Shown in pieces: positions 51,107 through 63,999 of a stretch of 64,000 bases of DNA. Where the stretch lies: positions 1 through 64,000 of the forward strand of contig JAQQAL010000014.1 in assembly GCA_028532855.1 (NCBI GenBank). The letters are read 5' to 3'. The notes under the pieces were generated by a model. The model made no database searches. It saw nothing but the letters and a program-made list of their open reading frames with translations, and had not been told where the DNA came from. Origin of the DNA: Candidatus Thalassospirochaeta sargassi. Its GTDB lineage: Bacteria > Spirochaetota > Spirochaetia > UBA9216. Position numbers and translations under genes: made by a program. Numbering within the stretch: the first letter of the stretch is position 1; each line of letters begins with the position of its first letter.

Positions 51107-51225
51107 GGGCTTAAAGGTAGTACTTTTATGTTAAAAATTCAATATAAAACGCCGTCGATAAGTTCTCTTTACAAAGCAGCTGAAAACTACATATAATCAC
51201 AGCATAATTTTATTTGGAGGTTTTA

Positions 51226-52221
51226 ATGGCTGTAAACATCAAGGGACGTTCATTCCTGACCCTGAAGGATTTCTCAAGTGATGAAATCAATTATATGCTT
51301 GATCTTTCTATTGATCTAAAAAGAAAGAAGAGGGCAGGAATTAGAGGTGATCTGCTTGAGCGAAAGAACATCTGCCTGATTTTTGAGAAGGCCTCCACAC
51401 GAACCCGATGTGCATTTGAGACTGCGGCTTTTGATGAGGGCGGAAATGTTACATTTCTCACTAATTCTCAGATGGGTAAGAAGGAATCTATCGAAGATAC
51501 AGCGAAGGTGCTTGGCCGTTTTTATGATGGAATCGAGTTTCGGGGGTTTAAGCAGGCTACTGTTGATGCACTGGCAGAGTATTCAGGCGTTCCAGTTTGG
51601 AATGGTCTGACTGATCTGTATCACCCGACTCAGGTCCTGGCTGATTTTCTAACTATAAAAGAGAATACTTCCAAACCATTAAGTCAGTGTAAGCTAGTAT
51701 ATGCAGGTGATGCGCGTAATAATGTCGCTAACTCGCTGATGATAGGCGCAGCCAAGGTCGGAATGGATTTTACGGCTGTTGCGCCGCAGGAACTATATCC
51801 TGAAGATTCGCTTGTGGCCGAAATGCGTGAGATTGCAAGTGAAAGCGGGTCAGTAATCGAGATAACTACTGATATTGAAGAAGGGCTTAAAGGCGCTGAT
51901 GCTGTCTACACCGATGTATGGGTGTCCATGGGTGAAGAGGATATGTTTGAAGAACGCATCAAACTCCTTGAACCCTACCGTGTAGATATGAAAATGATGA
52001 AGGCGTCGGGTAATCCGGAAGTTATTTTTCTGCACTGTCTGCCGTCTTTTCATGATATAGAAACCGAAATCGGCCGGGACGTGAAGGAGAAATACGGTCT
52101 TGATGAGATGGAAGTAAGCGATGAGGTATTCAGAGCCCCCTTTTCTAAGGTCTTCGATGAGGCAGAAAACAGGATGCATACCATTAAAGCTGTTATGGTA
52201 GGAACCATTGGGAACCTTTAA
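51226..52221 (+). CDS. argF: ornithine carbamoyltransferase
   Basis: [51 protein letters not shown] before ATG 51226. Confidence 0.95.
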
Positions 52222-52280: not shown

Positions 52281-52392
52281 AAATTTGATAAGAGATACGG
52301 GATTTGCTGCGAAATTTTATTGGACTCTATCCTTTGTCAAAAAATGTGCACAGGGATGTGAGTATGATGCTATAGTAAATAATGAAAAGCTT

Positions 52393-52475
52393 GATAAATA
52401 GGCTTACGCCTGTTAGGGTAACGATACGTTTGTAAGCGTCTGTTCAGCAGATGCTGAGAGTCAAGCCAGGTGTTG
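52393..52475 (+). ncRNA. candidate structured 5' leader of the BMP transporter operon
   Basis: Possible outer stem GGCTT(52401-52405)/AAGCC(52463-52467); hairpin GCGTCTG-TTCAG-CAGATGC; alternative stem GCTTAC/GTAAGC; no known riboswitch class recognised. Confidence 0.35.
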
Positions 52476-52530
52476 TTTATTTGTTTATGGGATGTTTAAT
52501 CGTGAGATTGAAACAAAAAAGGAGAAAATT

Positions 52531-53610
52531 ATGAAGAGTACTAAATCACTCTTGGTTGCTGCAGTAATCCTGCTGTTTATCGCTCCGGTTCTTATTGTTA
52601 CAGGATGTCAGAAAAAAGCTGAAACTCCAACGGAACCAGCTGTTGTAAAAGAGGAAGCGACGGTTGCCCCCTTTGCACTGGCTGTAGTTGTTCCGGGTGT
52701 TACCGCCGGTAGCCCCCTGTATGAACAGCTTGTTGAAGGTGCTCAGCAGGTAATCGATCAGTATCCTCAAGCCTCAATGAAGGTTGTCGAGCTCGGTTTT
52801 AACCAGTCTGAGTGGGGAGAAAAGATGACCTCCGTAGTTGCCACCGGCAGATATGATGCGGTACTAACCTCTAATCCCTCGATGCCATTCGTCTGCATGG
52901 AACTTGCTTCGCAGTTTCCGGAACAGAAATTCTTATTCGTAGACGGTTTCATTGAAGGGCATCCGCAGATGGCATCCTTTCTTTATAATCAGGTTGAACA
53001 ATCCTATATGCTCGGCCATCTTGCAGGATTGATTTCAACAAGTGATATGCCCGGTGCAAATGCTGATCTCAAGATTGGTATCATAGTTGCCCAGGAGTAT
53101 CCAGCTCTGAATAAGATGATTGTTCCCGGTTTTGAGCAGGGTGCACAGGCTGTCAATTCCGGTATCACCCTTGACTATCGCGTGCTCGGGAACTGGTATG
53201 ATGCTAATAAGGCGGGAGAACTTGCAAAAAGCATGATTGATGCGGGTGTTGATGTCATTGGTGTAATTTGCGGCGGGGCTGCCACAGGTGTTTTTGAAGT
53301 ATGCGCCGATAGAAATAAGTATGTCATGTACTGGGATGATAATTCCTATGCGAAGGCCCCCGGAGTTATTGCTGGATGCGGAGCTCTTCACCAGAAAATG
53401 CTCGTAGCCGAGGTTGTAGATGACGCTATAAACGGAAAGGTGGAGTACGGAACTGGTGTTAAGCTCAATGCGCGGGATGGATACATCGAATTTGTAGATA
53501 CAGATCCGAATTATCTAAATACCATTCCTGAATCCATTCAGGCTGAACAGAAGAAGGTTGTCGATTCAATTATGTCAGGAACTTTGGTTCTTGAAGTACC
53601 GGAACTGTAA
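52531..53610 (+). CDS. BMP-family ABC transporter substrate-binding lipoprotein
   Basis: Lipobox VLIVTGCQ; EQKFLFVDGFIEG, YNQVEQSYMLGHLAGL, VDVIGVICGGAATGVFEV; AAAAGGAG before ATG 52531. Confidence 0.9.
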   Translation: MKSTKSLLVAAVILLFIAPVLIVTGCQKKAETPTEPAVVKEEATVAPFALAVVVPGVTAGSPLYEQLVEGAQQVIDQYPQASMKVVELGFNQSEWGEKMTSVVATGRYDAVLTSNPSMPFVCMELASQFPEQKFLFVDGFIEGHPQMASFLYNQVEQSYMLGHLAGLISTSDMPGANADLKIGIIVAQEYPALNKMIVPGFEQGAQAVNSGITLDYRVLGNWYDANKAGELAKSMIDAGVDVIGVICGGAATGVFEVCADRNKYVMYWDDNSYAKAPGVIAGCGALHQKMLVAEVVDDAINGKVEYGTGVKLNARDGYIEFVDTDPNYLNTIPESIQAEQKKVVDSIMSGTLVLEVPEL

Positions 53611-53623
53611 AGCGGTTTTCAAC

Positions 53624-53664
53624 CCCGTCCCATGATCGCCTTTATGGGGCGATCTGTCGACGGG
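53624..53664 (+). other. strong intercistronic hairpin
   Basis: CCCGTC...GATCGCC-loop-GGCGATC...GACGGG; no clean T-run. Confidence 0.7.
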
Positions 53665-53683
53665 CATCATTTTATCCAGGAAG

Positions 53684-55225
53684 GTGAATGTGGAATCCTA
53701 TCTCAGCATGAAAAACATAAGCAAGACATTTGGTGTAACGGGACTTAAGGCAAACGACAATGTGACGCTTGATGTTCGAAGGGGTGAGATTCATGCTCTT
53801 GTCGGGGAAAACGGGGCGGGCAAGACAACACTGATGAATATTCTTTACGGTATTATGCAGCCGGATTCCGGAACAATCTCCCTGAACGGTAAGGAATTAA
53901 AGATATTAAATCCCATTGCTGCTAACAAAGCCGGGATAGGAATGGTTCATCAGCACTCCAGGCTGGTTAATGAATTCACCGTTGCTCAGAATGTAGTTCT
54001 GGGTGCTGAACCTAAAAAGGCTGCGATCTTTTTCGATAACAGAAAGGCTGAAGCTGAAGTTGCCGCTGTTATAGAAAAAAACCGCTTTCATATATCGCCC
54101 GAAATGAAAATCTCTGAAATAAGTGTCGGGCAAATGCAGCAGGTAGAGATAATAAAGATGCTTTACCGAAAGGCTGAACTTCTTATTCTTGATGAACCGA
54201 CCTCTATACTTACCGAGCAGGAGATTCAGAGGCTGTTTGATACCCTGCGTGAGCTGATTAAGCGGGGGAAGACTGTCATTTTAATAACGCATAAATTATC
54301 AGAGGTTAAAGATATCTCGGACCGGATAACTGTGATGAGGAAGGGGCGGATCGTCTCGGTAAAGGATACAGCAGATGTGGATGAGCGGGAAATATCGAAG
54401 ATGATGGTTGGAAAATCAGTTATCTTTGATTTTGCCAAGGGCGAAGAGGGTTGTAGAGAAACTGTGTTGAGTCTTGAAAAAGTCTCAATTCGAAAGAAGC
54501 GACAGGGCCATCCTATCCTGGATAATATTTCTTTTAATGCTTCTTCATGTGAAATTGTAGGGATTACCGGTGTGGCCGGGAACGGTCTTACAGAACTTGA
54601 GGATGTTATTGCCGGGCTTCAGAAGATAAGCAGCGGGAGTATTTACCATAACGACGAGGATATTACTAATATTTCTCCTAAAGCCCTGCGGGAACGCGGG
54701 CTTGCCTATGTTCCTACCGACAGGCTGAAGCGGGGATCGAGTCTTGATACATCAGTGAAGGAGAATCTGATTCTTACAAGCCATCATGATTTTATGAAAA
54801 GATGCGGCGTCTTTGATGATAATAAGATATCAGAGCACAGCAGGAGGCTTATTTCCGAGTATAAGATTGACGGCCATTCCGATGTTCCGATAGGAACCCT
54901 TTCGGGTGGGAATATCCAAAAGGTTATTCTTGCCCGCGAACTTGATAATGTGAAGGATTTTGTTCTTTTTTCCGAACCTACCTGGGGGCTGGATGTAGCA
55001 AGCAGTGAATTCATTTATGAAAAAATGCTTGAAATGAGGGCCCGTGGAGTTGCCGTTGTCCTTATCTCGTCCAATATCGATGAAATACTCACCCTTGCCG
55101 ATACAATATTTGTTATGTACCGGGGTAGGCTTGTTGCAGGCAGAGCCTCCGGGCCTGATTTGACACGCGAGGTTATCGGTGAATATATGCTTGGACTTAA
55201 AGATGATTTCAGGGGGGAAGAGTGA
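53684..55225 (+). CDS. ABC transporter ATPase (two ABC domains)
   Basis: Walker A GENGAGKTT, LILDEPTS, second half GVAGNGLTELE, LSGGNIQKVILAREL; GTG start. Confidence 0.94.
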   Translation: MNVESYLSMKNISKTFGVTGLKANDNVTLDVRRGEIHALVGENGAGKTTLMNILYGIMQPDSGTISLNGKELKILNPIAANKAGIGMVHQHSRLVNEFTVAQNVVLGAEPKKAAIFFDNRKAEAEVAAVIEKNRFHISPEMKISEISVGQMQQVEIIKMLYRKAELLILDEPTSILTEQEIQRLFDTLRELIKRGKTVILITHKLSEVKDISDRITVMRKGRIVSVKDTADVDEREISKMMVGKSVIFDFAKGEEGCRETVLSLEKVSIRKKRQGHPILDNISFNASSCEIVGITGVAGNGLTELEDVIAGLQKISSGSIYHNDEDITNISPKALRERGLAYVPTDRLKRGSSLDTSVKENLILTSHHDFMKRCGVFDDNKISEHSRRLISEYKIDGHSDVPIGTLSGGNIQKVILARELDNVKDFVLFSEPTWGLDVASSEFIYEKMLEMRARGVAVVLISSNIDEILTLADTIFVMYRGRLVAGRASGPDLTREVIGEYMLGLKDDFRGEE

Positions 55226-56265
55226 AAGTGAACCGCAGCGATATGTTTGTCACTGCAATAGCCCTGCTGATAACCCTGAGCGCAGCCTTTATGGTTATGC
55301 TTGTGATGATATTTATCATGAGTGAGACTCCGGGTGAGACACTTTTCTATTTTTTCGCAGGCCCCCTGACAAATAAGTATTATCTGGGAAATATGTTCAA
55401 TTCAGCTATACCTCTGATTCTTACCGGTCTGGGAATAGCCTTTGCGTTCCGCTCTTCGATGTTCAACCTCGGCGGAGAAGGGCAGGTGTACGCCGGAGGA
55501 TTTGCGGCTACTGCCGTCTGTCTTGCAATGCCTGCGGCAGGAGCCTTCTTCGGGATAACAGTCAGCCTTCTCGCCGCGGTTGTCACCGGTGCGGTTATTG
55601 CCGGATTATCAGGTTTTTTCAAAATGAAGTGGCGGACTGATGAGCTTATCTCCTCTTTTCTGATCTCCAATGCTCTGATTTATATAGTAGATAATTTTAT
55701 TACAGGACCCTTTGATGACCCGGGAAATAATCTATTGACTACAAGCAAGGTTGCGGAGCAGTTCTGGTTTAATAAGATCTTTCCACCGTCTAATCTTGAT
55801 ATAAGTATAGTCTTTGTTGTTATAATTGCTATTCTTGCTTTTTTCTATCTGTTCAAAACCCACCAGGGTTATGAGATGAGGATGTGCGGAGTAAATCCGG
55901 AGTTTGCACGCTATGGAGGAATTAACGTGGGGAAGTACATAATGCTGCCTATGTTATGGAGCGGAGCTCTCCATGGTCTTGCCGGCGCCGTGTATGTTCT
56001 GGGAACAAGTCATGCCTGCTTTAAGGGCTTTTCCGGCGGAATGGGATGGAATGGAATTGCGGTAGCTTTAATAGCCCGTAATAACCCTATAGCGGTAATT
56101 CCAGCCGCCCTGTTTTTTGCATATATTGAGGCCGGAGCTGAATCAGCAATGATTAATGCCGATATAACCATTGAGATTGCGTCTATTGTGCAGTCTGTTG
56201 TGTTCTTTCTTATAACAGCCCAGGCAATCTACAACTTTCTTAAATACAGGAGGAAAGCGGTATGA
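55222..56265 (+). CDS. ABC transporter permease
   Basis: Multi-TM; FNLGGEGQVYAGGF; 4-bp overlaps with neighbours. Confidence 0.92.
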   Translation: MKVNRSDMFVTAIALLITLSAAFMVMLVMIFIMSETPGETLFYFFAGPLTNKYYLGNMFNSAIPLILTGLGIAFAFRSSMFNLGGEGQVYAGGFAATAVCLAMPAAGAFFGITVSLLAAVVTGAVIAGLSGFFKMKWRTDELISSFLISNALIYIVDNFITGPFDDPGNNLLTTSKVAEQFWFNKIFPPSNLDISIVFVVIIAILAFFYLFKTHQGYEMRMCGVNPEFARYGGINVGKYIMLPMLWSGALHGLAGAVYVLGTSHACFKGFSGGMGWNGIAVALIARNNPIAVIPAALFFAYIEAGAESAMINADITIEIASIVQSVVFFLITAQAIYNFLKYRRKAV

Positions 56266-57164
56266 GCAGCGAAGGATTCTCAATCCCTATAATTCATAAT
56301 TCCATCAGCATAATGACGCCCTTTCTTCTTGCGGCAATAGGAGGGCTTATGACTGAGCTCTCCGGTATGTTGAATATCGCTCTTGAGGGTCTGATTCTTA
56401 TAGGAGCTTTTTTCAGCGTCATTTTTGCAGCGGCAACAGGGAGTCTTTTGCTTGGAATTCTTCTGGGCATACTTATGACAATTCTGGTTTCCTGGGTGTT
56501 CGGTGCAATCACCATCTATTTGAAGGCGAATGTTTTTATAACAGGGCTTGCAACCAATCTGCTTGCGAGCGGCTTAACAGCGGTTCTGTCCTTTCATATC
56601 TTTGGAACAAAGGGTGTTCTGATGTTTGAAGAACTCCCGCCTCTGCCGTCTTTGAATGTTCCCCCTCTGCATAAAATCCCCGTCCTGGGTGATATCTTTT
56701 TCGGTCATAACGTTTTTGTTTACATGAGCTGGATTATTGTTGTTATTGCCTGGTTCGCAATATACAGAACCCCATTCGGCTTCAGGCTCAGGGGGACCGG
56801 GAGTAATCCAAAAGCGATGATTGCAATCGGGCTTAATCCGCAGAACTATCAGATGCTTGGCATTCTTATCTCAGGTTTTACCTGCGGTCTTGCTGGAGCT
56901 GTGCTTACATTAAATCTTGGTGCCTATGTTCCGCATATCTCATCGGGCAGAGGCTGGATTGCTCTGGTTGTAATATACCTGGGTGGAAAGACTCCATTCG
57001 GTATATTAGGCGCAGCCTTCGTATTCGGATTGGCAGAGAGTTTTTCAAATTACGCCCAGGGGTTTATCGATATACCAGCTGATTTCATCCTGGCTTTTCC
57101 ATATATCATTACCGCAGCGGCAATGGTTATCATGTCGATAGTTCAGAACAGAAACGAGGATTAA
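56262..57164 (+). CDS. ABC transporter permease
   Basis: Multi-TM; GLMTELSGMLNIALEGLILIGAF, FRLRGTGSNPKAMIAIGLN. Confidence 0.92.
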   Translation: MSSEGFSIPIIHNSISIMTPFLLAAIGGLMTELSGMLNIALEGLILIGAFFSVIFAAATGSLLLGILLGILMTILVSWVFGAITIYLKANVFITGLATNLLASGLTAVLSFHIFGTKGVLMFEELPPLPSLNVPPLHKIPVLGDIFFGHNVFVYMSWIIVVIAWFAIYRTPFGFRLRGTGSNPKAMIAIGLNPQNYQMLGILISGFTCGLAGAVLTLNLGAYVPHISSGRGWIALVVIYLGGKTPFGILGAAFVFGLAESFSNYAQGFIDIPADFILAFPYIITAAAMVIMSIVQNRNED

Positions 57165-57212
57165 AGAGCGGTCGATTTGCCTTGTTTTCTGGATTAACTT
57201 GACGTATAATAA

Positions 57213-57233
57213 ACCTAACGTAATACGTAAGGT
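57213..57233. promoter_or_regulatory. MerR-type palindromic operator
   Basis: ACCTAACGTAATACGTAAGGT, near-perfect dyad next to TTGACGTATAAT. Confidence 0.65.
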
Positions 57234-57245
57234 TGGTGGCGTGTG

Positions 57246-57701
57246 ATGTATAGAATCGGTGATCTTGCAAGGGAGGCGGATGTGACTGTCAGGACTATCC
57301 GCTACTACGAGGAGCTGGGGCTGATTGATGCCCCTGCTCGGGAAGATCGTGAACAGCGCAGATATACTGATAAGGATCTGATTTATCTCAAGCGGATTAT
57401 TCAGCTGAAGAGCTACGGTCTGACCCTGATAGAGATAAAAGAGATAATCGAGTTGGGTAAATCGGATCCTTCCGGTGAGAAGCGGAGAATGAGGCTTCTG
57501 AAACATTACAGAGAAAAGATCAGTGATGCTATAAGCAGGCGGGAAAAACTTGATGCATATGTTGATGATCTTCAGTGGCATATCGAACAGCTTGAAAATG
57601 TCGATGATTTTCAGGGCTGCCCCGGACCTGCCTGTGCGGATTGCAGATTTTTAGAAAAATGCCGATTTGCGGTTACAATGGAGACTGAGGAGGAGATATG
57701 A
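57246..57701 (+). CDS. MerR-family regulator with C-terminal cysteine motif
   Basis: YRIGDLAREADVTVRTIRYYEELGLIDAP...; C-terminus GCPGPACADCRFLEKCRF. Confidence 0.93.
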   Translation: MYRIGDLAREADVTVRTIRYYEELGLIDAPAREDREQRRYTDKDLIYLKRIIQLKSYGLTLIEIKEIIELGKSDPSGEKRRMRLLKHYREKISDAISRREKLDAYVDDLQWHIEQLENVDDFQGCPGPACADCRFLEKCRFAVTMETEEEI

Positions 57702-58723
57702 AATCAGCGGTACTTATGGATGCCCGAAGTATTGAGATTATGGAATCGGAGATCCCGGAATGCGGAGATTGCGAGGTTCTTGTAAGGGTGAAGTACTGCG
57801 GCATCTGCACCCTGGAGCAGAGGCTGTGGGCGGGTGACATGAAAATCTATTATCCCCTCGTTCCCGGGCATGAGGTGTCCGGTGTTGTGGAGAAGGTTGG
57901 TAAGGGTGTTAAATCAGCCTTGAAGGCCGGAGACCGTGTTGCACTGGATATGGTTTATCGCTGTCATCAGTGTTACTACTGCCGCACCGGGCAGTCCAAT
58001 CTATGTGAAAATCAATTCACCCGGGGTGTAACCCCCCTCGGTGGTTTTTCAGACTATGTTGTTGTCGCTCCCGAAAGGGTTTTTACTATTGCCGATAATC
58101 TGTCGCTTGAAGAAGCAGCATTCGCTGAACCAGTAGCCTGCTGCCTGAGATCTCTCAAGAAGCTGAATCTGACTATTGCTGAGGATATTTTAATTGTCGG
58201 TGCGGGACCGATGGGGCTGATGCACCTTCAAGTTGCCCTGGCCATGGGGGTCAGGGTTTTCATAAGCGATGTAGATGATTCCAGACTTGCAACGGCTGCA
58301 GAGCTTGGTGCAGATTTCACAATTAATCCAGTATCAGTCGACGCAGTTGAAGCTGTCAGGGCTGAAACAGCGGGGAGAGGAGTTGACGCATGCGTTGTAA
58401 CAAGTCCGGCAATACCCGCCCTTGAAGCCGCATTTAAATCGATAAGAAAGAACGGCCGCATCAATATTTATACGGCATACATGCAGGAAAAACCCCATAT
58501 GCCGATAGATATGAACAGACTGCATAGAAGCGAGGTCCTTGTAACCGGAACCGAAGGCCGCACTGAGTTTGATTTTCAGCAGGCTGTAAGGCTTCTTGAT
58601 TTTGGAAGGGTTAATGTTAAGCCGCTTATAACACGGATTGCCGGTTTCTCTGATATTGAAGACGGCATCAAGGCGGCGATGAGTACAGAAACGCAGCGGG
58701 TGCTGCTTGGAACTGAAAAATGA
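57698..58723 (+). CDS. zinc-dependent medium-chain alcohol/polyol dehydrogenase
   Basis: KYCGICTLEQRLW, PGHEVSGVVEKVG, CHQCYYCRTGQSNLCEN, VGAGPMGLMHLQ. Confidence 0.93.
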   Translation: MKSAVLMDARSIEIMESEIPECGDCEVLVRVKYCGICTLEQRLWAGDMKIYYPLVPGHEVSGVVEKVGKGVKSALKAGDRVALDMVYRCHQCYYCRTGQSNLCENQFTRGVTPLGGFSDYVVVAPERVFTIADNLSLEEAAFAEPVACCLRSLKKLNLTIAEDILIVGAGPMGLMHLQVALAMGVRVFISDVDDSRLATAAELGADFTINPVSVDAVEAVRAETAGRGVDACVVTSPAIPALEAAFKSIRKNGRINIYTAYMQEKPHMPIDMNRLHRSEVLVTGTEGRTEFDFQQAVRLLDFGRVNVKPLITRIAGFSDIEDGIKAAMSTETQRVLLGTEK

Positions 58724-60189
58724 TACTTGCGTTTGATATAGGTACTACAGTACTTAAGGGAGCCCTGCTGTCGGAAGACGGTGAGTTTCTGAGTTTATCT
58801 TCCAGGAACATGTCTCTTCGCGATACGCTTGAAAGCGGTTTCTATGAGTCGGATTCCGGTGAATGGATAGAGTCTTTCTGTTCGGTCTCGGCCGAGCTTC
58901 TGTCGAATTTTGATAAGAACCGGTTACGGGCTGTCGTAATAAGCGGAAACGGCCCGACCCTTGTTCCGGTAGCAAAAGACGGAACCTTTCTCGAACCCGT
59001 TATGTCCTGGATTGACCGGCGCGGCACGAAACAGTCGGAGAAGATTGGACAGGTGCAGGATTTCGTCATTGACCCGACATTTTACCTCCCCAAGGCAATG
59101 TGGATTGCGGATAATCTGCCTGAGGTTTATGAAAAAACCGGTTTTTTTCTCTCCTGTCCGGAATCAATGGCGTTCTGGCTGACCGGTACAGCCGTTACGA
59201 TACTTCCGGGGCTGAAGTTTGAAAAATATTTCTGGAGTGATAAACTTCTATCTGATCTAGGGCTGGATAAAAATAAGTTTCCTGATTTCGTAAAACCCGG
59301 GCATGTTACAGGCTCTATTAGCAAAAGCGCGGCGGCAGCCTCCGGACTGCCTGAAGGGATTCCTGTTGTATCGGCGGGGCCTGACTTTGTCGTCACCCTC
59401 CTGGGCACTGCTGCCGTATATCCAGGGCGCGCATGCGACAGATCCGGGACCTCCGAGGGAATCAACCTCTGTACAGAAACCTATGTTGAAGATCCAAGGC
59501 TCATGGGTTACGGACATGTTGTAGAGCCGCTCTACAATGTTTCAGGAATTATATCAACTTCGGGCAAGGCTCTCGAATGGATCAAAGCCCAGCTGACTCC
59601 CTCCGGAACAGATGTCAGTGCTGATTATTCCGTATTTATTGACGCCGCGGCATCTTCGCCCTCCGGGGCTGATGGCCTGCTGTTTCTCCCATATCTTGCA
59701 GGTGAACGCGCGCCGCATTGGGATCCCTCGGCCAGGGGCGCATTTCTCGGTTTGGGGCTGCATCACGACCGTTGTGATATGATCCGCGCTGTACTTGAAT
59801 CTACAGGTTATGCAATGCGCGATGTAATTGAGGTTATGACTGAAAATGGAGGCCGGGTCGACGAAATGCGGATAACCGGGGGACCCTCTAAATCGGGGTT
59901 GTGGAACCAGATTAAGGCTGACATTACAGGTAGAAGACTGCTTGTTCCGGAATCAACTGAATCCGAGTTGCTGGGCAATCTTGTCATAGCTCTCAGAGCC
60001 CTGGGTGACACAGATGAGCTTGCGGCTTCAGCGGACAGAATTGTGCGCATCAAGGATGTATATGAACCTGATGCCGGGCGTCATGCGATATATTCTGAAT
60101 ATTTTGAACTTTATCGTGAGTCCTACAGATTATTGAAACCATTATTCGGTCCGCTTGCGGCCGCCAGAGAAAGAACGGAGGAAGAATGA
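58720..60189 (+). CDS. FGGY-family carbohydrate kinase
   Basis: AFDIGTTVLKGALL, SAGPDFVVTLLGTAAV, DGLLFLPYLAGERAPHWDPSARGAFLGL, ITGGPSKSGLWNQIKADITG. Confidence 0.94.
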   Translation: MILAFDIGTTVLKGALLSEDGEFLSLSSRNMSLRDTLESGFYESDSGEWIESFCSVSAELLSNFDKNRLRAVVISGNGPTLVPVAKDGTFLEPVMSWIDRRGTKQSEKIGQVQDFVIDPTFYLPKAMWIADNLPEVYEKTGFFLSCPESMAFWLTGTAVTILPGLKFEKYFWSDKLLSDLGLDKNKFPDFVKPGHVTGSISKSAAAASGLPEGIPVVSAGPDFVVTLLGTAAVYPGRACDRSGTSEGINLCTETYVEDPRLMGYGHVVEPLYNVSGIISTSGKALEWIKAQLTPSGTDVSADYSVFIDAAASSPSGADGLLFLPYLAGERAPHWDPSARGAFLGLGLHHDRCDMIRAVLESTGYAMRDVIEVMTENGGRVDEMRITGGPSKSGLWNQIKADITGRRLLVPESTESELLGNLVIALRALGDTDELAASADRIVRIKDVYEPDAGRHAIYSEYFELYRESYRLLKPLFGPLAAARERTEEE

Positions 60190-60989
60190 ACACCGGAAAG
60201 ACTATCAGAATAAACAACATCTTCAGTAAGGACGATGGCAAAACCGTTATTGTCGCAATTGACCACGGAGGAATAGCCGGGCCGATGAAGGGCATCAACG
60301 AGCCTGCCAAGCTTATACAGGCATGTGTTGACGGGGGTGCAGATACTGTCTTGACAACAAGGGGGTTCATAAGAGCTGCGGAAGGATCATTTGATCGAAG
60401 TCTAGGAATAATTCTCAGGCTGACAGGCGGGTTCACTGTATTCGGCGGCAAGTTTGAAGAAGAAGTGATAACATCGGTTAAAACTGCGTTAAAGACAGGT
60501 TCAGCCGGTGTCGCCGTAACTGTCAAATTCGGCCATGAACGTGAGGGGCATTTTACGCAGCAGGCGTCCCTTATCGCAGACAGCTGTGAAGACTGGGGCC
60601 TGCCGCTGATGATTGAGGCTATGGCACGGGGTAACGGTTTCGACGGAAAACCCCTGAAGTCTACTGATTCAGCGGGAATAAAGCTTGCGTCCCGGGCTGC
60701 TGCTGAAATTGGCGCTGATATGGTAAAAACCTATTATACCGGCAACCCTGATTCATTTGCCGAGGTAGTGGAGGGCTGTATGGTGCCTGTTGTTATCCTC
60801 GGCGGTGCAAAAACGGACTCAATTCGCGATGTTTTCAGCGATGTTTACTATTCAATACAGGCCGGAGGATCTGGCATTGCCATAGGCCGCAATATCTGGC
60901 AGCATGAGAATACGCAGGCGATGGTGGAGGCTATGTGCGGGATTGTACATGAAGGCTGGAGTGTAGATCAGGCCATGGCTCATATTTAA
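60186..60989 (+). CDS. class I aldolase, LsrF/DhnA (DeoC/FbaB superfamily)-like
   Basis: VAIDHGGIAGPMKGI, GLPLMIEAMARG, GADMVKTYYTGNPDSFAEVV, VVILGGAKT, GGSGIAIGRNIWQHENTQAMV. Confidence 0.88.
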   Translation: MNTGKTIRINNIFSKDDGKTVIVAIDHGGIAGPMKGINEPAKLIQACVDGGADTVLTTRGFIRAAEGSFDRSLGIILRLTGGFTVFGGKFEEEVITSVKTALKTGSAGVAVTVKFGHEREGHFTQQASLIADSCEDWGLPLMIEAMARGNGFDGKPLKSTDSAGIKLASRAAAEIGADMVKTYYTGNPDSFAEVVEGCMVPVVILGGAKTDSIRDVFSDVYYSIQAGGSGIAIGRNIWQHENTQAMVEAMCGIVHEGWSVDQAMAHI

Positions 60990-61062: not shown

Positions 61063-62763
61063 TTAAAGCACCCGACGGAGGTTTTCCTCCCGTGATACAA
61101 GTTTCTTTTCTTCCATTTTATTCAACAGCGGAATAATGTATTTTCGGGATAACCCAGTGCGCTGCTTTGCATGGGCTATATCGAAGGTGTCACCTTTTTT
61201 AAGCCCCTTCAGCATTCTTTCGCAGAGTGAGCTGAAGATTTTTTCCGTCAGAAAGAGTGTTTCGGTCAGCGGAATAATCAGCCCGGCACGAGTGAGCACC
61301 CTGAGCTCCTTATGAGCTCCTGGAATTCTCTTTTTACTGAGATCAAAACCGGTGTCTCCCGCCTGCTCCATTTCCTTAAGAATTTGAGAGGCTGTCCTGG
61401 AGAGTTCAATGTCATTCTTTTCTGAGGTTGATAGTAGCCCGTTCTGTTCTGTAATTTCACCCGAGCCTGTAAGCCCTTCAATGAGTTGTACCACTGCGCC
61501 GGCGGAGAGTTTAAGCCTGCCGACAAGCTCTTCCCTCCTGATACCGCCGGCAGATGATGCCTCCGCTTTTATATCATTTTCAAGCTGAAGTCTTTTTTCT
61601 TTCTGGAAAATCCATTTATTGCCGTCGTTGAACAAACCGTGCACAGCAAGGTTAAGTGAAGTTGAATCAGTATCAGCTGCAGTCGCAACAGCTCTCCTTG
61701 CGTTCTTATCCAGCGTTCCCTTCCATATGATTTTTCCACTACCGGTAATAAGGCTGCCGCCCTTCCTGATTATTACTATCGGCTGTCCAAGACGAAGGGG
61801 GATTGCGCTGCTTAGGGTTACACGCGCACGTGCGGTTGTTCTGCCGGCGACTGTAAGGAAGTGTATTACGCCGATTGAATGTGCTGTGCCGGCAGCAAAT
61901 TCAGCCTCTGAATGGTTTCGGACTGAGGATTCAGCTTGATTAAGCTCAATGATAAATTCCGTTTCTGCTGTGAAGCCGGAGTCGGGCAGGGTTAGACAGC
62001 AGCCTCGTCCAACCTCCTCTATGTCCGCACCGGCAATATTAACCGCCAGACGGCAGGCCGGAACAGCCTCATCTGTTTCATCTTCATAGGTTTGAAGACC
62101 GCGCACTCTGATGGGTTTTTTGTTCGGGAGAAGCAGCAGGCTGTCGTTTTTTTTGATCCCTCCCTCGCGCAGGCTTCCTGTTACGACAAGCCCGGCTCCC
62201 TGAATGCTGAATGCTCTGTCTATATACATCAGCGGCTTTCCCGGGATCATGTCTTCTTTTCCGGCGAGTTTTCGGTATATCAATTTTTTCAGTTCAGGGA
62301 TATTATCACCTGCAGCAGCAGACACACCGATGGCGGGATACTTCCTGCCTGTAATTTCTAATAATCTCAGCCTGCAGTCTTCAATAACATCCGCAGTTCG
62401 TTTTGGTTCAACAATATCTGTTTTGGTAACAACTATTAACAGCTCATTAATTCCCATCGCCATCAATACGCGCATATGGTTTCCAGTCTGGAACATCCAT
62501 CCGTCGTCTGCTGCAACTACAAGCAGGGCAAGGTCAATTCCCCAGGCCCCTGCCGTCATGTTACGTATAAATCTTTCGTGTCCAGGCACATCTACAACAC
62601 CAATTTTGCTACCCTGTTCATCATTGAAATGTGCAAATCCAAGATCAATTGTGAGTCCGCGCTGCTTTTCTTCTGGAAGCCTGTCGGTGTCTATACCGGT
62701 GAGAGCTTTTATAAGCTGGGTCTTGCCGTGATCTACATGCCCGGCAGTACCGATTATATGCAT
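61063..62763 (-). CDS. selB: selenocysteine-specific elongation factor SelB
   Basis: IGTAGHVDHGKTQLIKALTGIDTDRLPEEKQRGLTIDLGFAHF; C-terminal winged-helix region. Confidence 0.96.
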   Translation of the reverse strand: MHIIGTAGHVDHGKTQLIKALTGIDTDRLPEEKQRGLTIDLGFAHFNDEQGSKIGVVDVPGHERFIRNMTAGAWGIDLALLVVAADDGWMFQTGNHMRVLMAMGINELLIVVTKTDIVEPKRTADVIEDCRLRLLEITGRKYPAIGVSAAAGDNIPELKKLIYRKLAGKEDMIPGKPLMYIDRAFSIQGAGLVVTGSLREGGIKKNDSLLLLPNKKPIRVRGLQTYEDETDEAVPACRLAVNIAGADIEEVGRGCCLTLPDSGFTAETEFIIELNQAESSVRNHSEAEFAAGTAHSIGVIHFLTVAGRTTARARVTLSSAIPLRLGQPIVIIRKGGSLITGSGKIIWKGTLDKNARRAVATAADTDSTSLNLAVHGLFNDGNKWIFQKEKRLQLENDIKAEASSAGGIRREELVGRLKLSAGAVVQLIEGLTGSGEITEQNGLLSTSEKNDIELSRTASQILKEMEQAGDTGFDLSKKRIPGAHKELRVLTRAGLIIPLTETLFLTEKIFSSLCERMLKGLKKGDTFDIAHAKQRTGLSRKYIIPLLNKMEEKKLVSREENLRRVL

Positions 62764-63999
62764 CTACAGTTTTTCTTCGAGTGCTTTCAGTACCGATTTA
62801 ACGTACTTTTGATCATCATCGGTAAATACCGCTGGATTAAGTACAGCACTATCTCCGTTTATCTTTCCTATGATGGGGATTTCTGCATTACGCAATTCGT
62901 CTATAATTGCCTGAGGCTTCATTTTTTCCGAAACAATCTCAATCGACCAGCTCTCAAAGAACTGGTCGGGGGTGCTTCCACCACCAAGGCATATTCTGTC
63001 GCTTATCAGTTTATATTTCTCTGTTGATAATCCTCTTTTGAGTTTTTTACATTTATCTTTTACGACATCGCCGCTGTCGATAAACTCTGCATGCCTTGAC
63101 CAGGCATTCGGACTGTTGAGCCTTAGAAGCAGGCTTGTCTCCAGGAGTGAGTAGATAGTTTTTCCCGGCCGCATAGTTCTGATAAGAGGGTTCTGATCAA
63201 CCGCTTTTATCAATTCGGTTTTACCGGCAAGAATACCCGCCTGCGGGCCGCCGAGAATTTTATCCCCGCTGAATGTTACAATATCTGCACCGTCGCCCAG
63301 AAGACTTTTAACTTTATCCTCACCGGCTATGTTTTCATTCAGGACGCCGGAACCCTGATCTACAGCTATTAGAACATGATCAGGAATAATTTCAGACAGT
63401 TCCCGCACCGTAGGTTCAGAGGTGAAGCCTCTTACTGCAAAATTCGAGCGATGAACCTTCAGTATTAATGCCGTATTTTCGGTTATTGCATCAAGATAGT
63501 CATCAAGGGTTGTTATGTTTGTTGTCCCAACCTCTACCAGTTCGGCACCGGATAGCCGCAGAATCTCGGGAATTCTGAAGCCTCCACCTATCTGGACCTG
63601 CTCGCCTCTTGATACAATGACCTGTTTACCGGCAGCGAAGGTGCTGAGCATTAGATAGACGGCGGCAGCGTTATTATTTACCACGGCGCTTGATTCCGCT
63701 CCAGTCAGCGTATTCAGAAAGAAGGGGACCAGACCGTTTCTTTTGCCTCTTTTTCCGGTTTTAAGCGAGAGTTCAAGGCTGGAGTAACCGGTATTTACCG
63801 CTTCACAGGAATTCCAGACCTCTTTTTCTATTGGTGAGCGCCCCATATTAGTATGGAGAATGACACCGGAAGCGTTTATCAGCGGTCTGATACGCCGGTT
63901 GTAAAGCCTGGCGCAGAGTTTTTCAATATTCATGTAGAGAGCATCCTCATCAAAACTGCCTCCATCCAGTATAAGAGACCTTGAATGCTCTATTGCTGA
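62764..63999 (-). CDS. selA: L-seryl-tRNA(Sec) selenium transferase SelA (partial, runs off the right edge)
   Basis: RPLINASGVILHTNMGRSP, FSGDKILGGPQAGIL. The frame stays open past the annotated ATG at 63933 to the window end (SAIEHSRSLILDGGSFDEDALYMNIEKL). Confidence 0.93.
   Translation of the reverse strand, partial: SAIEHSRSLILDGGSFDEDALYMNIEKLCARLYNRRIRPLINASGVILHTNMGRSPIEKEVWNSCEAVNTGYSSLELSLKTGKRGKRNGLVPFFLNTLTGAESSAVVNNNAAAVYLMLSTFAAGKQVIVSRGEQVQIGGGFRIPEILRLSGAELVEVGTTNITTLDDYLDAITENTALILKVHRSNFAVRGFTSEPTVRELSEIIPDHVLIAVDQGSGVLNENIAGEDKVKSLLGDGADIVTFSGDKILGGPQAGILAGKTELIKAVDQNPLIRTMRPGKTIYSLLETSLLLRLNSPNAWSRHAEFIDSGDVVKDKCKKLKRGLSTEKYKLISDRICLGGGSTPDQFFESWSIEIVSEKMKPQAIIDELRNAEIPIIGKINGDSAVLNPAVFTDDDQKYVKSVLKALEEKL

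Follow-up and report, generated by a model that had tools for sequence, protein, structure and literature searches.

We propose that eight forward-strand genes at positions 52531-60989 of a 64,000-nucleotide stretch of Candidatus Thalassospirochaeta sargassi DNA (the window) make up a riboflavin uptake-and-use system; from their families and genome context, the operon probably serves the import and phosphorylation of riboflavin and the cleavage of its side chain. The parts of this proposal differ in strength: an ordinary riboflavin transporter is well supported, a new riboflavin-kinase family is probable and strongly suggested by genome context, and a new anaerobic route of side-chain cleavage is probable and plausible. 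The window opens contig C14 in a draft genome of 3.8 Mb with a completeness rating of 100%, and the closest named relatives are Spirochaeta/Spirochaetales metagenome-assembled genomes (genomes, contigs and loci of the comparison set carry G, C and L numbers below).

An earlier note on this DNA had named the eight genes and their families, and all were found in place by an open reading frame (ORF) check and domain profiles, with matches to Bmp (PF02608), ABC_tran, BPD_transp_2 (two genes), MerR_1, ADH_N/ADH_zinc_N, FGGY_N/FGGY_C and DeoC/LacD. The 4-bp overlaps by which it had the genes coupled are exact at five junctions (55222-55225, 56262-56265, 57698-57701, 58720-58723 and 60186-60189), whereas the genes for the binding protein and the ATPase lie 73 bp apart; a gap of 78 bp also separates the second permease gene from merR. 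The outline drawn there, in which a polyol-bearing compound is taken up, oxidised, phosphorylated and cleaved at a C-C bond by a class I aldolase, is kept here, but the substrate was wrong or too vague. The combination of genes, which the note had not recognised, has no exact described precedent.

Transporter genes and their ligand

The first gene (52531-53610; Shine-Dalgarno sequence AGGAG before an ATG at 52531) encodes a lipoprotein of the BMP/PnrA superfamily, with lipobox VTGC and of the riboflavin-binding RfuA type. In a phmmer search its top solved relative was 4iil, the Treponema pallidum protein TpN38(b)/RfuA, with 255 bits compared with 62 bits for PnrA. An AlphaFold model built from 13 homologues (predicted local distance difference test, pLDDT, 89) gave the same structure, RfuA (TP0298) with riboflavin, as top Foldseek match in the PDB (TM-score, TMt, 0.94; root-mean-square deviation 1.6 Å), followed by PnrA with inosine at 2.8 Å. 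Our tree of 55 BMP proteins contained a 45-row RfuA clade, with 100% support in the Shimodaira-Hasegawa-like approximate likelihood-ratio test (SH-aLRT), comprising the window protein, all cluster-linked proteins, T. pallidum RfuA and seven proteins controlled by riboswitches for flavin mononucleotide (FMN); the ten other BMPs, among them the PnrA-type protein of G079, a T. pallidum-type genome, and two encoded in the window genome, fell outside it. Residues specific to the RfuA clade include S61, P62, Y64, Q188, Y190, N221 and A225. The nucleoside- or sugar-type import that the earlier note had expected of a BMP system is not supported by this RfuA-type binding protein, with PnrA outside its clade. 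As far as sugars are concerned, the transporter has thus turned out to belong with an unrelated ligand, a finding that the note had set against its own pathway; the reasoning built on a polyol still holds, since the ribityl chain of riboflavin is a polyol.

The transporter genes are present in the order A, B, C, D, with the binding protein followed by an RfuB-type double ATPase subunit (53684-55225; GTG start, two ABC_tran domains), an RfuC-type permease (55222-56265; GTG start) and an RfuD-type permease (56262-57164), both permeases having a BPD_transp_2 domain and a gene overlapping the preceding one by 4 bp. FMN riboswitches (RF00050) were located directly 5' of RfuA-clade members in many other genomes, and some of the members so preceded are nested inside the catabolic-cluster transporters (L075, L076). 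An FMN riboswitch upstream of an RfuA-type gene had already been seen in Spirochaeta smaragdinae, and RfuA is known to bind riboflavin (PMC4418817). In the window, no FMN or other riboswitch was found at Rfam thresholds, and matches at E<=10 were only of chance level; the FMN riboswitch is common for rfu operons but not defining, as T. pallidum-type G079 is also without one. Clade membership, the fold match to 4iil and the FMN riboswitches upstream of relatives all point to riboflavin as the ligand of the binding protein, and RfuABCD of the window is very likely a riboflavin transporter.

A candidate riboflavin kinase of the FGGY family

The seventh gene (58720-60189) encodes a kinase with FGGY_N and FGGY_C domains and a catalytic Asp, D222, which we propose to be a riboflavin kinase acting on the 5'-OH of the ribityl chain, in view of its clade and its linkage to rfuA and FMN riboswitches. 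Structure comparison showed an ordinary FGGY fold, closest to xylulose kinases, so the substrate is not given by the fold alone. In trees of 80 and 112 proteins, the rfuA-linked FGGY proteins formed one spirochaete-wide clade (59 and then 70 rows; support 100% and 99%) that excluded XylB, AraB, GlpK, FucK, RhaB and LsrK of E. coli, with clade-specific residues around the active site at F223 (next to D222), C239, R241, E246, G247 and N249. Its place outside these clades and its ties to riboflavin transport and FMN riboswitches argue against the ketose or polyol kinase that had been read into this gene. Counting best hits only, the FGGY gene lies on the same contig as rfuA and within 8 kb of it in 41 of 61 genomes, and within 2 kb in 31. 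For example, in G028 and G109 an FMN riboswitch is followed by rfuABCD and then, as the last gene, by an FGGY gene that overlaps the last permease gene and whose product is 47-49% identical to the window kinase, and in G079, whose RfuA matches the 4iil sequence, the FGGY gene lies three genes 5' of rfuA. At another locus (L303; G085 C327), an FMN riboswitch precedes a different ATP-binding cassette (ABC)-type ATPase gene, with an FGGY-clade kinase gene divergent beside it, an arrangement in which another type of flavin transporter may share the FGGY-clade kinase.

Despite the essential role of FMN, a search for the flavokinase domain (PF01687) identified a recognisable riboflavin kinase in no more than 4 of 118 spirochaete genomes, as against 10 of 14 control genomes, and a specific FGGY family fits this gap. 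The flavokinase motif GxPTAN was present in none of 44 inspected spirochaete ORFs for flavin adenine dinucleotide (FAD) synthetase (a few genomes being sampled twice), the T. pallidum-type enzyme also being without it, but is kept in E. coli RibF and in all ten RibF proteins of clostridial fin loci (discussed below). In the three genomes whose flavokinase gene is not part of a fin locus (G002, G039 and G094), the FGGY clade is absent and all FGGY proteins are of XylB or GlpK type. A distribution of this kind is what non-orthologous replacement would produce, and the spirochaete riboflavin kinase is probably the FGGY enzyme.

In the window genome we found no lumazine synthase, no flavokinase (PF01687) and no FMN riboswitch, the window kinase itself being an FGGY protein without a flavokinase domain; there is a single RfuA-type protein and one high-scoring FGGY-clade kinase (1107 bits; runner-up, 223 bits). 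The genome therefore has no other visible way to FMN than the window locus, although no search was made for unrelated riboflavin importers (RibU, for example), and the organism, having no lumazine synthase, is a predicted riboflavin auxotroph. Judged by genome context, there is a strong likelihood that the FGGY enzyme is the missing spirochaete riboflavin kinase. No paper naming a T. pallidum RibF or linking FGGY proteins with riboflavin kinase was found in the open-access literature, but an FMN-riboswitch 'carbohydrate kinase' of C. ljungdahlii has been reported without an obvious role (PMC4418817), for which an FGGY riboflavin kinase might account.

Dehydrogenase, aldolase and the proposed cleavage route

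The gene at 57698-58723 (ADH_N/ADH_zinc_N) encodes a Zn-dependent medium-chain dehydrogenase, whose closest curated models are threonine and polyol/inosose dehydrogenases and for which we propose FMN or riboflavin as substrate and ribityl C4' as the site of oxidation. The last gene (60186-60989; PF01791, E=4e-39) encodes a DhnA-type class I aldolase, proposed to be a retro-aldol enzyme yielding dihydroxyacetone phosphate (DHAP) and formylmethylflavin. The candidate Schiff-base lysine already pointed out in MVKTYY, K181, is invariant in 15 orthologues together with D26, E144 and the phosphate-binding GRNIW, and corresponds in the alignment to the lysine of LsrF that has been replaced by Ala in the mutant structure 4p2v. 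Dehydrogenase and aldolase are paired in nearly every complete locus, and the set of dehydrogenase, kinase, aldolase and transporter recurs in more than 30 loci of four phyla (Spirochaetota, Bipolaricaulota, Atribacterota and Coprothermobacterota) and in at least three gene orders, with Rfu before the enzymes, with the enzymes before Rfu (Sphaerochaeta, Treponema, G062 and G014) or divergent (L108, L110, L124, L125 and L150); the association is therefore more than chance. Transporter and enzymes are at separate loci in G105, G115 and G016.

Between transporter and enzyme genes, merR (57243-57701; GTG start; PF13411, E=1e-18) encodes a MerR-family regulator with a Cys-rich C-terminus, and in relatives it has the same position or is divergent from the dehydrogenase gene. 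A candidate MerR operator at 57213-57233 (no strand assigned), the palindrome ACCTAACGT-AAT-ACGTAAGGT, has its sole exact match in the window at this site, and similar palindromes lie upstream of merR or the dehydrogenase gene in L048 (0 mismatches), L049 (1), L112 (2) and L065 (3), with weaker versions in L066, L108, L116 and L117; where merR is divergent, the palindrome falls in the shared intergenic region. The conservation and position of the palindrome suggest that MerR controls the enzyme genes. An unscored TATAAT is located at 57205-57210, just 5' of the candidate operator.

A nucleosidase cannot release the ribityl chain. Oxidation at C4' makes the chain a 2-ketose counted from C5', and with a phosphate on C5', class I aldol cleavage between C3' and C2' gives DHAP and 10-formylmethylflavin (N10-CH2-CHO); formylmethylflavin is a known photoproduct. 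In the route that we propose, RfuABCD would bring in riboflavin, and the FGGY kinase would phosphorylate the ribityl 5'-OH to form FMN (or act on 4'-keto-riboflavin), replacing the flavokinase that is absent from most spirochaetes. Once MerR permits, the Zn dehydrogenase would oxidise the C4'-OH, so that the chain becomes a ketose-1-phosphate, and the aldolase would form a Schiff base at C4' and cut at C2'-C3', producing DHAP (C3'-C5') and 10-formylmethylflavin. DHAP would enter glycolysis, 10-formylmethylflavin would be reduced to hydroxyethylflavin or further oxidised by other enzymes, and the whole route would be oxygen-free, with the side chain used for energy. With the position of oxidation and the products taken from established enzymology, the balance leans towards side-chain cleavage by the dehydrogenase and aldolase.

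A retro-aldol cut at C2'-C3' followed by reduction would explain hydroxyethylflavin as the product of F. fissicatena, and the long-known conversion of riboflavin to hydroxyethylflavin and related products by gut anaerobes would find in the operon an explicit chemistry that needs no oxygen. On the oxidative branch, an aldehyde dehydrogenase (ALDH), or the aldehyde:ferredoxin oxidoreductase (AFOR) of some spirochaetes, may form N10-carboxymethylflavin, an N-aryl glycine that could be split by an enzyme of the glycine-reductase (Grd) type into lumichrome and acetyl phosphate, and such cleavage would explain the presence of Grd genes in both clostridial and some spirochaete loci. Among the 118 spirochaete genomes, eight had GRDB; the cluster is present in five of the eight, and in G003, G007 and G041 GRDB and the transporter are some 15 kb apart. 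The joint proposal, that the FGGY enzyme is the riboflavin kinase of most Spirochaetia including T. pallidum and that phosphorylation, C4' oxidation and retro-aldol cleavage anaerobically yield DHAP and formylmethylflavin, then hydroxyethylflavin or an N10-carboxymethylflavin open to Grd-type cleavage, is advanced tentatively.

Alternative explanations

Several observations weigh against a flavin pathway as outlined above. In relatives, the operon runs on into genes for xanthine dehydrogenase (XDH), SsnA, PreA, AFOR, hydantoinase, carbamoyltransferase and glycine reductase, which are typical of purine fermentation. An FGGY-aldolase-dehydrogenase trio accompanies a sugar-type ABC transporter in other spirochaetes, so the trio alone is no proof of flavin as substrate. 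The window-type and fin aldolases fall into separate clades, which makes the clostridial parallel convergent or ancient rather than a matter of orthology, and G003 holds both a fin-type locus (L179) and a window-type cluster, so that the two systems may differ in role. With regard to the kinase, the FAD_syn domain was found in only 80 of the 118 spirochaete genomes, indicating that divergent domains can escape a profile search, and both the flavokinase domain and the FGGY-clade kinase were looked for without success in G072 and G080 (these assemblies are 96% and only 68% complete, respectively).

The alternative that survives best, although improbable, is that the RfuA-like transporter imports another heterocycle with a polyol or sugar chain, such as a purine, pterin or nucleoside, with the ring genes of relatives degrading the base and the trio degrading the chain. 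XDH-, SsnA- and PreA-like genes do lie directly 5' of the transporter in G003, G007, G041, G105 and others, several relatives having an upstream extension of the order ferredoxin (Fd)-AFOR-XdhB-XdhC-XDH-SsnA-PreA to which G003 adds HyuAB, carbamoyltransferase and a complete Grd set; XDH/SsnA-like genes also stand beside the Coprothermobacterota cluster, and a second RfuA-like protein of G062 adjoins PreA/XDH-type genes. However, these XDH, SsnA and PreA proteins share only 21-39% identity with other purine sets of canonical appearance (G041 L177 and G000 L181) from their own or related genomes, the operon contains no nucleosidase or phosphorylase, neither the window nor the compact versions in Sphaerochaeta/Treponema have ring genes, and the RfuA clade with its FMN riboswitches indicates flavins. 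The ring genes may act on the uracil-like flavin ring or on purines. XDH, SsnA and PreA were not adopted as part of the window pathway, as none is present in the window and the genome's own copies are distant.

In G003 (L068, L049; C10:128001-168000) these genes belong to a very long same-strand array, which runs from HyuA through HyuB, an octopine-dehydrogenase-like gene, carbamoyltransferase, GrdB (apparently split at a selenocysteine (Sec) codon), GrdE, GrdA, thioredoxin, a GrdCD-like gene, Fd, AFOR, XdhB, XdhC, XDH, SsnA, PreA, RfuABCD, MerR, dehydrogenase, FGGY and aldolase to a major facilitator superfamily (MFS) gene, and is followed by selB/selA on the other strand. In the window, a structured leader 5' of rfuA (52377-52492, forward strand; fold z=-2.5) had no Rfam match but aligned collinearly with the 3' end of preA in G004 (z=4.0). 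Rather than a riboswitch, it is probably a gene scar, what is left of the 3' end of a preA-like gene after decay; if so, the lineage has probably lost the ring-gene module.

Ordinary catabolism of a sugar, polyol or autoinducer-2 (AI-2), with a riboflavin-type transporter merely adjacent, is very unlikely. A sugar-type trio of FGGY kinase, polyol-type dehydrogenase and DhnA aldolase does exist elsewhere among spirochaetes, but the association with RfuABCD is kept in many families and in three gene orders, the kinase, which has ties to FMN riboswitches, belongs to none of the sugar-kinase clades, and LsrB and LsrG are missing. An AI-2 pathway, to which the AI-2-like compounds of the earlier note would belong, was rejected, since the aldolase is not LsrF, the kinase lies outside the LsrK clade and further AI-2 genes are absent. 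The unrelated second FGGY-aldolase-dehydrogenase trio (L172-L178) goes with a sugar-type (SBP_bac_1) ABC transporter, and lies near purine-type genes in G041, G048, G089 and G016.

Least probable of all is flavin repair or salvage, in which the aldolase would condense DHAP with formylmethylflavin and the dehydrogenase would reduce the ketone to rebuild FMN, for although DHAP aldol condensation is favourable and a predicted riboflavin auxotroph would gain from the rescue of damaged flavin, the cluster is also found in lumazine-synthase genomes (such as G003, G016, G041, G054 and G115) and in the clostridial parallel, induction follows an excess of riboflavin and the strain degrades the vitamin (PMC12934955).

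Neighbouring genes

Directly downstream of the cluster, on the opposite strand, are the genes for SelB and SelA (61063-63933), and selA/selB also adjoin the cluster in relatives L048, L049, L051, L054, L062, L098, L101, L105 and L126, with a tRNA-Sec gene nearby in L054 and L062. Some relatives have Sec-containing Grd proteins, with which this placement agrees; GRDB was not found in the window genome. Just 5' of rfuA is an ornithine-carbamoyltransferase-type gene (51214-52221), of which an 84% identical copy also lies 5' of rfuA in G002, whereas identity with the carbamoyltransferase of the G003 array is only about 31%. The MFS gene found 3' of the aldolase gene in relatives has no orthologue in the window genome (best identity 22-25%).

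Comparison with known systems

The window transporter resembles T. pallidum RfuABCD (TP0298 and the following genes; 4iil) in clade, fold and the order of the four transporter genes, but lacks an FMN riboswitch, and its operon extends into merR, dehydrogenase, kinase and aldolase genes. The reaction proposed for the FGGY kinase, riboflavin + ATP to FMN, is that of bifunctional RibF/flavokinase (PF01687), whereas the FGGY fold is unrelated and spirochaete FAD synthetases are without the flavokinase motif. With the Lsr autoinducer-2 system the window shares an ABC importer, an FGGY kinase and a DhnA-type enzyme with a Schiff-base lysine; it differs in having no LsrB-type binding protein and no LsrG, and in a kinase and aldolase outside the LsrK and LsrF branches.

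A counterpart to the gene set is the fin neighbourhood of Clostridium scindens, which likewise brings together at a single locus a DhnA-kind class I aldolase, a dehydrogenase of the Zn type and a kinase linked to flavins, a comparison based on clostridial loci that share the fin gene content and not on the C. scindens genes themselves. The aldolase scan returned 14 Bacillota loci, ten of them with RibF in the same locus; L128, for example, contains a SorC regulator, aldolase, dehydrogenase, an amino-acid-permease-like gene, RibF, ALDH, GrdB and GrdE. The fin-type loci L131, L132, L136 and L158 also encode an iron-containing alcohol dehydrogenase, which is a candidate enzyme for the reduction of formylmethylflavin to hydroxyethylflavin. 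The window, in which RibF, ALDH and Grd were not found, has instead an FGGY kinase, the importer RfuABCD and an aldolase of another clade. According to PMC12934955, a 2026 preprint, the fin neighbourhood is induced by high riboflavin while C. scindens makes lumichrome, a variant occurs in the hydroxyethylflavin producer F. fissicatena, and anaerobic riboflavin breakdown is proposed for the fin genes, with no retro-aldol-type mechanism mentioned in its available sections. Because window-type aldolases form a clade of their own, distinct from LsrF and from the fin aldolases, orthology was rejected, and we treat the two systems as possibly the same chemistry, separately reached or anciently diverged. 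The aerobic RcaE pathway of Microbacterium/Devosia also removes the ribityl side chain, but as a monooxygenase pathway it depends on oxygen (PMC12934955), whereas the chemistry proposed for the window would proceed without it.

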